A stretch of DNA of 61,871 bases from positions 1,280,436-1,342,306 of the forward strand of contig JAMPDE010000001.1 in the NCBI GenBank assembly GCA_023665825.1. The letters run 5' to 3'. Position 1 is the first letter of the stretch; every line of letters starts with the position of its first letter. The notes under the pieces are model-generated. The model worked only from the letters and a program-made list of their open reading frames with translations, was not told where the DNA came from and searched no databases. The DNA comes from Alistipes senegalensis. Its GTDB lineage: Bacteria; Bacteroidota; Bacteroidia; Bacteroidales; Rikenellaceae. This document shows positions 1,494-38,316 of this stretch, piece after piece. A program made the position numbers and the translations under genes.

Positions 1494-1637
1494 TCGCTCG
1501 TGAAAATTGGACACTTTCAGAAACGTGAGGATAAAAGTAGGTGTTCACGCTGCTTGTCGGCGTGGGCATGACTTATATTTCACGTTTCGGGTCGTCCAAT
1601 ACCTCGCGAGTGGATATAATGATATGTCCACGTTTTT
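1494..1637 (+). ncRNA. Structured RNA element, copy 1 (five-helix rod ending in a U-run)
   Basis: No known family is asserted. Helices seen directly are: P1 1494-1503 with 1604-1613 (10 pairs including G-U); P2 1506-1512 with 1594-1600 (ATTGGAC/GTCCAAT); P3 1521-1528 with 1580-1587 (AAACGTGA/TCACGTTT); P4 1531-1538 with 1571-1578 (one mismatch); and P5 1546-1550 with 1560-1564 (CACGC/GCGTG). A short hairpin (GTGGA 1610-1614 / TCCAC 1627-1631) precedes TTTTT at 1633-1637 and looks like an intrinsic terminator. It shares bases with P1, so the two cannot form together. The element at 37393-37546 has the same helices with different bases. It lies just before the Sel1-repeat gene and could be a leader or a separate small RNA. 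I find no good TAnnTTTG box before it. Confidence 0.72.
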
Positions 1638-37124: not shown

Positions 37125-37381
37125 GGTTGGTGTCAGTTGTTTTTGAGTTTTTTTGTTTGCTTGGCGATGCAACAAAGGGTGTGCCAGCACCTTTTTTCTG
37201 CCATTTTGACAGTCGCAGGCTGACAGCTGTTGCAGGTATCGATAAAAAAGCGGTGAAAAAAGAGCCTTTGCAAAAAAAATCGTATCTTCGTACCGAACTT
37301 AAATAGACGTGCCTATGAAGTAAAACCATGAAAGTCATCCCGTGCCGTCGGTAAAATCAGCGGCATAACATAATAAAACGT

Positions 37382-37389
37382 TATCTTTA
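37382..37389 (+). promoter_or_regulatory. -7 promoter box placing a transcript start at the base of the RNA element
   Basis: TATCTTTA (TAnnTTTG with one change) ends four bases before helix P1 of the element, so a transcript would begin almost exactly at the first paired base. No TTTG is seen at -33. Confidence 0.5.
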
Positions 37390-37392
37390 ATC

Positions 37393-37546
37393 CTGCTTGT
37401 CGAAATCTGGAAAATTTCAAAAACAAGTAGCCGGAATGAAGTTTGGCGTTCACGTGTTTACACGTGGACTTTATTCTGATATTGGCTACTTTGGGTATTC
37501 CAGAACCTCGACAAGCGGATAGAAGGATTTTGTTCCACGTTTTTTT
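37393..37546 (+). ncRNA. Structured RNA element, copy 2 (five-helix rod ending in a U-run)
   Basis: Helices seen directly are: P1 37393-37403 with 37508-37518 (11 pairs); P2 37406-37412 with 37498-37504 (TCTGGAA/TTCCAGA); P3 37425-37432 with 37484-37491 (AAGTAGCC/GGCTACTT); P4 37434-37442 with 37468-37476 (GAATGAAGT/ACTTTATTC); and P5 CACGTG 37451-37456 with 37461-37466. P1 to P5 are in the same order as in the copy at 1494-1637 but use different bases, so pairing is kept while sequence changes. Blocks shared by both copies are TTTCA-AAAC, GTTCACG, CGTGG, ACCTCG, GGATA and TCCACG plus a T-run (here 37540-37546). A -7 box just upstream suggests it is the 5' end of a transcript. It is either a separate small RNA or the leader of the gene at 37606. 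Family not identified. Confidence 0.75.
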
Positions 37547-37605
37547 ATGTCCTTATTCGAAAACTAACCCGCCGTGGAACCGGCATTCTTAATGCCTAAA
37601 AAATA

Positions 37606-38316
37606 ATGAAAAAAATCGTATTGCTTTTTGTGTCGCTTTTTATGCTCGGCTTTTCCGGTATCACTTATGCCGCCAAAACAGTAACATTTACCGTATCGCT
37701 TCAAAGTCTTCCGGCCGGAGCGAAAGTGTATTATAAAGGTCAATTGGTGAGTATGACGACGCCTGCCACTATTTCCTTGTCCGTACCTAAAAAAGAGTGG
37801 AAGGATAGAATCGAGCTAACTTTTGTTAAAGAAGGTTATCCTGACAAAATAGTTTATATACAAGCGAATCTACTATTTGGTCCAATGATGCCCTTGTCTG
37901 CAAATTGTGAGTTTGAAAAAGGAGCAGCGTATATTAATGACACCTCCATTCAAGCCGGTGAAGCACATACGGTAGTCAGCCGCGACAATGCCGGAGCTTC
38001 GGCGTTGGAGCGGACGATTATCCGATGGTTCTTCGATTCGGCTCCGCAGGGGGCGCAGGTTTACTGGCGCGTCATTTCGAGCATTCCGGCCGAAGTGAAG
38101 AACACCAACGAAAACTACATGGGCACGACGCCGTACGAGGAAACCCGTTCGTTCAACATTCTGGGGCTGACGTACGAAAATTCGCGCGACGTGCAGGTCG
38201 AGGTGAAAATCAAAAAACGCGGCTATTACGACGGCGTGAAGCGATTCAACGTTCGGCAGGCCATCGACCAGCAGGAGATAAGCAGTTTTTATGAGCTTGT
38301 TCCGAAAGAGGAGTAA
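37606..38316 (+). CDS. Secreted protein of unknown function, PEGA-like beta domains
   Basis: A 236-residue protein with signal peptide MKKIVLLFVSLFMLGFSGITYA. The mature part has two segments with PEGA-like or surface-layer-type beta patterns: LQSLPAGAKVYYKGQLVSMTTPATISL (about 32-58) and SAPQGAQVYWR...YMGTTPYEETRSFNI (about 145-187). Such domains are small beta-sandwiches of unknown binding role. I do not recognise the whole protein. The first half of the gene (to about 37960) is clearly AT-rich while the second half is GC-rich like the rest of the window, which suggests a recombination join inside the gene. It follows structured RNA copy 2. Confidence 0.7.
   Translation: MKKIVLLFVSLFMLGFSGITYAAKTVTFTVSLQSLPAGAKVYYKGQLVSMTTPATISLSVPKKEWKDRIELTFVKEGYPDKIVYIQANLLFGPMMPLSANCEFEKGAAYINDTSIQAGEAHTVVSRDNAGASALERTIIRWFFDSAPQGAQVYWRVISSIPAEVKNTNENYMGTTPYEETRSFNILGLTYENSRDVQVEVKIKKRGYYDGVKRFNVRQAIDQQEISSFYELVPKEE

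Follow-up and report, generated by a model that had tools for sequence, protein, structure and literature searches.

The window (the whole 61,871-nt stretch of Alistipes senegalensis DNA analysed here) carries two copies of a structured RNA element, here called copy A and copy B, and all of the features of the two copies given below lie on its forward (+) strand. The preliminary description had placed five nested helices at 1494–1637 and the same order of helices with other base pairs at 37393–37546, and on reading the sequence we located both copies there, with the order kept and the base pairs different. The apical arms that it had called P5 were seen as well, as CACGC/GCGTG in copy A and CACGTG/CACGTG in copy B. 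Matches to a covariance model of the element, R1, extend 5′ of 1494 and of 37393, and a 5′ leader lies ahead of the element. As a whole rod element copy A covers 1465–1647, where R1 scores 127.2 bits, and copy B covers 37365–37556, where it scores 153.2 bits, both copies being in the training set of the model. Against 200 dinucleotide shuffles the predicted fold has a z of −6.63 for copy A (1465–1637) and −7.08 for copy B (37365–37546), and in neither case was any of the 200 shuffles equally stable. At the edge of the window, positions 1–49 on the minus strand hold a tRNA gene that is cut by the window boundary (Rfam tRNA, 32.4 bits).

In copy A, a start-stop mini-ORF, ATG AAG CAT TAA, was located in the 5′ leader at 1416–1427. 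In the predicted fold the 5′ arm of helix P1 (strand a, 1495–1501) pairs with its 3′ arm (a′, 1605–1612). A motif G, GAAA[ATTGGAC]AC TTTC at 1502–1518, encloses the 5′ strand of P2 (c, 1506–1512), and a motif H, GGT[CGTCCAAT]ACC at 1590–1603, encloses its 3′ strand (c′, 1594–1600), P2 being ATTGGAC/GTCCAAT. P3 is predicted between AAACGTGA (5′ arm b, 1521–1528) and TCACGTTT (1580–1587). The core of a strand s2 lies at 1541–1550 and that of a strand s3 at 1560–1569; s2 would pair with s3 in the rod, or with a strand s1 in an alternative hairpin 1. Strand s4 (1624–1632) runs directly into a U-run (1633–1637), and the next gene, for a Sel1-repeat protein, is at 1665–2909, in a frame that opens at the ATG at 1638. 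We found in copy A no promoter box (neither TAnnTTTG nor the variant TATCTTCG), no strand s5 (described below) and no evident signal peptide.

In copy B every part of the leader model that we develop here is present. The variant promoter box TATCTTCG at 37283–37290 is followed by a mini-ORF, ATG AAG TAA, at 37315–37323. In the predicted fold the P1 5′ arm (a) at 37394–37400 has its partner within the 3′ arm (a′) at 37509–37517, the G motif GAAA[TCTGGAA]AA TTTC (37402–37418) and the H motif GGT[ATTCCAGA]ACC (37494–37507) enclose the two strands of P2 (TCTGGAA/TTCCAGA, 37406–37412 and 37498–37504), P3 joins AAGTAGCC (5′ arm b, 37425–37432) to GGCTACTT (37484–37491), and the apical s2/s3 hairpin of the rod lies at 37445–37469. 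Strand s4 (37532–37539) and its U-run (37540–37546) are followed by strand s5, CGTGGAAC, at 37573–37580, which complements s4 at 8 of 8 positions and sits inside a short inverted repeat (37571–37584). The gene behind copy B (37606–38316) encodes a protein with an exported-type hydrophobic N-terminus. One subclass of copies has a further 5′ domain between the mini-ORF and the rod, in which CGTGCCG is followed by ACATA or a variant of it; with CGTGCCG it is found at 37342–37372 of the window and in loci L050, L051, L053, L055 and L056.

A DNA search with copy B gave diverged copies in the same genome and in relatives, from which copies were then extracted by motif, and R1 was built from an alignment (A2) of 14 short copies. 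In the 2.27-Mb genome to which the window belongs R1 has 35 matches at E ≤ 1, two of which are antisense hits of sites already counted; 31 sites lie at E ≤ 2.6e-6, and six of these are in the training set. The preliminary description had suggested a multi-copy family from two copies and had proposed a covariance search of this and other Alistipes genomes, and that search bears the suggestion out, with these 31 sites and with matches across the phylum. In three samples, each of which includes the own genome, R1 matches were found in at least 57 of 61 genomes of the genus, at least 71 of 198 genomes of the order (58 of 151 genera) and at least 33 of 296 genomes of the phylum; these counts are lower bounds because 43, 13 and 8 candidates per genome were scored in the three samples. 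One exact pattern matches 53 DNA stretches in genomes of taxa that include Alistipes, Rikenella, Prevotella and other Prevotellaceae, Bacteroidaceae, Paludibacteraceae, Duncaniella and one Chryseobacterium assembly. The same pattern found no match in viral contigs, and copy B as query found none in plasmids and phages, both searches being ones that diverged copies would escape; a phage, plasmid or viral origin is not supported by these two queries. One of the 106 matches in a larger alignment (A4), an antisense hit of the copy in L162, was dropped but kept in the P1 + P2 and G/H pair counts below, and a parser placed 100 of the 104 unique copies, leaving four out.

The copies vary in form and setting. 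Six of those in the own genome (L059, L060 and L062–L065) form a short subclass that starts at GACATA right after the promoter box, and several of the six have further repeat sequence in common past the element. Copies in three distant relatives (L252, L260 and L263) have a different apical hairpin and different s1/s4 sequences, and are perhaps a further subclass. Pairs of elements on the same strand stand about 30 nt apart in L169 and L154 and about 940 nt apart in L161, and are possible duplication units. In ten loci chosen for that position (L162–L165, L168, L172–L174, L177 and L178) the copy is 195–376 nt from the end of a contig in a fragmented genome, which looks as if the region were repeated within the genome. 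A SAM-II riboswitch (L041:1778–1836, +, 55.4 bits) lies near one copy.

From the outside inwards, the rod consists of P1 (a with a′), GAAA opposite RCCT, the 7-bp P2 (c with c′), TTTC opposite GGY, P3 and an apical hairpin. The preliminary description had argued for a functional RNA fold on the ground that pairing is kept while sequence changes, and this holds far past two copies, in up to 105 aligned rows. P1 and P3 were parsed independently of the pairs in the model. A perfect 7-bp P1 is found in 91 of the 100 parsed copies, as against a mean of 2.4 and a maximum of 8 when arms are swapped between copies (500 shuffles), and a 7-bp P3 is present in 96 of 100, as against an inter-copy mean of 19.3 and a maximum of 26 (40 shuffles). 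Even in a set reduced to 12 copies that are less than 70% alike, 11 keep a perfect P1. For P2, whose complementarity is built into the parse by construction, 27 sequences occur among the 100 copies. Over 105 distinct rows, in an alignment fitted to a model that already contained both helices, 99.0% of P1 + P2 cells are paired compared with 58.5% after shuffling, and the covariation score is 1.019 compared with 0.220. The P1 + P2 pairs changed on both sides number 14 of 14, which says little since 79 of 500 shuffles reached this, and neither the changed-pair nor the pair-type count exceeds that of the shuffles.

The sequences of P1 and P3 are largely private to each copy. In the own genome 28 of 29 P1 hexamers are distinct, and P1 arms fit each other in 22 of 29 copies but in only 5 of 812 combinations of arms from different copies. 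Some paralogues are 94–97% identical outside P1 and P3 while their arms are largely different. This privacy could reflect drift, or selection against cross-talk between paralogous RNAs. We dropped hypermutation of P1 and P3 as a firm claim: the gene of the best pair has diverged as well (78% identity over a 1,866-bp match), so that the arms may have drifted slowly, with compensation, next to an element under strong constraint. An example of such paralogues is given by L072 (C11:998261–998488) and L073 (C11:1179910–1180138), two BACON-type lipoprotein genes with their leaders, which differ in P1 and P3 and whose homology reaches from the promoter to a point just beyond the gene.

Homology of that extent, from promoter to just past the gene in two own-genome paralogues, could also point to a mobile or recombining DNA cassette of promoter, palindromic element and gene, with the fold acting in single-stranded DNA. 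The element is indeed near-palindromic, R1 also matching the antisense strand of two own-genome copies, and the closely spaced copies in L154, L161 and L169 and the several copies near contig ends in fragmented genomes would fit such a cassette. Ordinary gene duplication explains the paralogues, however, and the promoter box, the mini-ORF and the downstream gene are all strand-specific; viral contigs (one exact pattern) and plasmids and phages (copy B) gave no match, though diverged copies would be missed there. We regard an explanation at the DNA level as improbable.

The preliminary description had drawn one static, nested fold. Its helices stand, but it is incomplete because mutually exclusive pairings covary as well. 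Read from the sequences of the copies, two competing sets of pairings both covary, as parts of a chain of mutually exclusive pairings, 1:2, 2:3, 3:4 and 4:5, each of which covaries. We compared duplex energies within copies with those of swapped partners in 36 copies less than 78% alike, the tests of s1 to s4 covering short copies only (c to c′ at most 105 nt). In this non-redundant set z is −7.3 for s1-s2, −8.3 for s3-s4 and −10.5 for s2-s3, whereas the control pairings s1-s3 and s2-s4 are null (+1.1 and +0.7) and s1-s4, the closing pair of the rod, is weak (−1.6). In a stricter set of nine short copies s1-s2, s3-s4 and s2-s3 persist (0, 3 and 0 of 2000 permutations being as extreme), and nothing is left of s1-s4 (z −0.1, 862 of 2000 permutations as extreme). 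The sequences thus allow s1:s2 and s3:s4 as two hairpins, the second ending in the U-run and resembling an intrinsic terminator, or s2:s3 with the long-range helices P1, P2 and P3 as a single rod, which is incompatible with the two hairpins. When the two halves of the element were folded alone in three copies, the two hairpins formed, the second with s4 adjoining the U-run. Summed energies favour the rod in 89 of 91 copies, and a terminated state could therefore arise only kinetically.

In many copies a fifth strand lies between the U-run and the gene, where s4 could pair with s5 once s3 has let s4 go. Across 75 of the 100 copies the mean s4-s5 complementarity score is 15.45 within copies and 12.31 (sd 0.28) with swapped partners, and in 32 non-redundant copies z is +7.9. 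The score is at least 14 in 52 of the 75, compared with 23.1 expected with swapped partners, and below 14 in the other 23, of which copy A is the lowest. In the 52, the median distance from the end of s5 to the start codon is 25 nt (range 3–97).

The motifs around P2 tell a similar story in fewer bases. GAAA and TTTC, which flank c, are complementary to each other, as are GGY and RCC, which flank c′, but neither pair can form while P2 stands in the rod. Among 100 copies the GGY/RCC combinations are GGT/ACC in 82, GGC/GCC in 12, GGT/GCC in 5 and GGT/CCC in 1; GGC/ACC never occurs, so that GGC is found only with GCC (12 of 12). The first base of GAAA covaries with the last of TTTC and the last of ACCTC, its partner in either fold, the three-way states being G,C,C in 71 copies, A,T,T in 10 and mixed in the other 19. 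In the 12 copies less than 70% alike the three-way change is absent (G,C,C 9; G,T,C 2; A,C,T 1), and the GGY/RCC change is still seen (nine GGT/ACC, three GGC/GCC). Together the G and H stems have 23 doubly changed cells compared with 5.2 in shuffles (0 of 500 as high), but controls in which the stems were slid reach a covariation score of 0.142 compared with the real 0.168, and up to 6 doubly changed pairs compared with 4, and few variable pairs underlie the covariation. The outer strands are the stronger case for a competing fold.

Covariation of P1, P2, P3, G and H could be reconciled all at once if the RNA assembled with itself, P1, P3 and the G/H hairpins making a four-way fold whose c and c′ loops kiss between molecules into dimers or chains, with the variable arms keeping copies apart. 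We consider this very unlikely, for P2 within one molecule should win at ordinary concentrations, and the s4-s5 pairing and the downstream genes would be left unexplained. The same motifs, GAAA, TTTC, GGY and RCC, are conserved beside an otherwise variable helix, and the element has a cis position, so that one might propose a riboswitch, with a small molecule binding in the internal loops on either side of P2 and deciding which of the two folds is adopted. Few conserved unpaired positions are available for a pocket, however, and the downstream genes described below have export in common and no pathway (36 Pfam families among 75 proteins); we give a riboswitch little credence.

Upstream of the element, TAnnTTTG occurs within 150 nt in 73 of 100 copies, compared with 21 on the opposite strand and 8.1 in shuffles. 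We take this to be the −7 promoter box of Bacteroidota, of which copy B would carry a variant. At the other end, s4 is followed by T5 in 94 of 100 copies and by T4 in 99 of 100, figures that are given without a background control. In the leader, a motif GC[CT]nATG precedes 46 of 100 copies, and in all 45 distinct leaders that bear it an in-frame stop follows within five codons, compared with 10 and 15 of the 45 in the other two frames. These mini-ORFs have 0–4 codons between start and stop, and since both the number of codons and their sequence vary, it is the start and the stop that are kept and not a fixed motif. The encoded residues are mixed, lysine being the commonest (25 of 85), with no evident regulatory codons in the 45 leaders. 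Such a start-stop mini-ORF would be unusual in a bacterial leader. The motif is absent from the listed long-class copies of the own genome and from six Prevotella copies.

Downstream of the element, 83 of 105 matches (one site, L158 and L177, being included twice) have a same-strand ORF with an ATG start, at least 60 codons and a start within 150 nt, at a median distance of 48 nt. Judged by our own crude rules for signal peptides and lipoboxes, the N-terminus is hydrophobic in 74 of these 83 near ORFs, and 31 carry a lipobox. Of the own-genome copies 30 were counted (all of the 31 sites but C11:823424), and 22 of them are followed by a near ORF; 17 of these 22 are hydrophobic at the N-terminus compared with 78 of 206 control genes, and 11 of 22 have a lipobox compared with 12 of 206. 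No ORF lies within 150 nt behind the other 22 of the 105 matches, among which are five of the six copies of the GACATA subclass. The phylum sample contributed 29 copies, one of which comes from the same order; only 13 of the 29 have a near ORF, with a hydrophobic N-terminus in 10. At six loci from the same class or phylum (L235, L237, L240, L242, L246 and L253) the copy lies 216–367 nt upstream of a transporter-like ORF, presumably TonB-dependent (SusC-type).

The near-gene proteins are diverse in kind. A search with 75 of the 81 distinct proteins gave 36 Pfam families (25 of which were listed), none in more than five proteins, those leading the list being BACON (5), LRR_5 and LRR_8 (4 each) and DUF4595, Lipocalin_4 and BACON_2 (3 each); no common pathway was evident among these 75. 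The protein behind copy B has no Pfam match at E ≤ 0.001 and is 43% identical to a PEGA protein encoded downstream of the copy in L104, from another genome of the genus, so there element and gene travel together. Taken as a whole, the element appears to be a large and apparently unnamed RNA family spread across Bacteroidota, whose members often stand directly ahead of genes for exported proteins.

The same elements could be independent, trans-acting small RNAs with their own promoter and terminator, of which the rod is the working form and the downstream genes mere neighbours. Promoter boxes and U-runs do frame the element, the rod has the lowest energy in 89 of 91 copies, and some own-genome copies have no near gene. 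Many copies are nevertheless tightly spaced to an exported-protein gene (the median of 48 nt for 83 ORFs), and the P1 sequences of the own genome (28 of 29 hexamers distinct) are unlike a shared target site in trans. Moreover, s5 lies past the U-run, and its covariation with s4 requires transcripts that continue beyond that point. Small RNAs acting in trans seem to us unlikely, if less so than the other alternatives above.

The explanation that we favour, and to which we give an even chance, is that both elements belong to one RNA family that acts in cis as an attenuator-type 5′ leader switch of the gene that follows. The chain of pairings 1:2, 2:3 and 3:4 together with the U-run has the logic of an attenuator. 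The terminated state would be 1:2 with 3:4, and the read-through state 2:3 and P1–P3 with 4:5, the parts of the latter being mutually compatible. We infer that hairpin 1 would form first during transcription. If hairpin 2 then formed, transcription would stop at the U-run and give a short RNA only; alternatively the loops of the two hairpins could kiss through P2 and zip up through P1 and P3 into the rod, so that the terminator would be lost and transcription would enter the gene. Switching, termination at the U-run, the cue and the direction of control are our reading of the sequences, and the cue might come from a protein bound to the conserved loops on either side of P2 or from ribosomes that occupy the start-stop mini-ORF. 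The differences in P1 and P3 from copy to copy may serve to keep the leaders of paralogues from zipping together.

A broader proposal, which we put forward only tentatively, is that zipper attenuators form a class found across the phylum. A genome could carry up to dozens of such leaders, each with a P1/P3 barcode of its own, by which hairpin 1 would strip only its own terminator; surface and secreted proteins would be switched copy by copy, with ribosomes on the mini-ORF or an RNA-binding protein setting the switch, and terminated leaders would survive as small RNAs that do not cross-talk. If these readings are true, gut Bacteroidota and other members of the phylum would share a large structured-RNA family, with 31 sites in one 2.3-Mb genome, and a set of exported, often lipid-anchored proteins would have one kind of leader in common. 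Covariation reveals the competing folds, which makes the switch directly testable with compensatory mutants, and the private barcodes pose the question of neutral drift versus selection against cross-talk between paralogous RNAs.

The preliminary description had thought of the Bacteroidales-1 motif or a 6S-like rod. Bacteroidales-1, an RNA tabulated from Bacteroidales (PMC2864571), resembles the elements here in being a structured RNA of similar length (RF01693, 179 positions), but RF01693 has no match in the own genome at E ≤ 0.001, whereas its control in Bacteroides ihuae was detected, and cmscan of copies A and B gave no match to it even at E ≤ 10, so that membership is to be rejected. Nor does the 6S-like rod find support: no 6S family was listed for A and B at E ≤ 10, and 6S-Flavo (RF01685) had no match in the own genome, in a less clean search whose control was also detected nowhere. 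The comparison with Rfam that had been proposed there placed no Rfam 15 family over the elements searched: in the window and 20 loci with copies, the only matches above the gathering threshold were two tRNAs and one SAM-II, outside the element. Flavo-1 (RF01705) is a structured Bacteroidetes motif with many hits, some of them in 5′ regions (PMC9723704, PMC2864571); its hits are described as sense or antisense alike, from which the elements here differ. It was rejected, with no match at E ≤ 10 for A, B or the Chryseobacterium copy (L206). We found no description of this RNA family in the open-licence literature. The candidate motif HMP2_4205, palindromic, 132 bp long, mostly from Bacteroidetes and near TPR genes, is a predicted Rho-independent terminator, and the portion of its description available to us includes no second fold or leader ORF (PMC8040213). 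Compared by description only, it may be a partial sighting of this family.

Two known systems come closest in design. In attenuators of the trp type, hairpins 1:2, 2:3 and 3:4 alternate and a leader ORF is present. Our elements resemble them in having exclusive 1:2, 2:3 and 3:4 pairings, all of which covary in non-redundant copies, a U-run directly after strand 4, a position upstream of a gene and, in about half of the copies, a short 5′ ORF. They differ in adding the long-range zipper P1–P3 between the hairpins and the 4:5 pairing, in a mini-ORF of only 0–4 codons after the ATG with no evident regulatory codons, in preceding genes for exported proteins and not for amino-acid biosynthesis, and in numbering about 30 copies in one genome. 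The kissing-loop pairs ColE1 RNAI/RNAII and CopA/CopT belong to genes for plasmid copy number. Like these, the elements described here have complementary loops of about 7 nt and have diversified into variants that would not cross-react, but a single molecule contains both of their partners, and they are copies on the chromosome.
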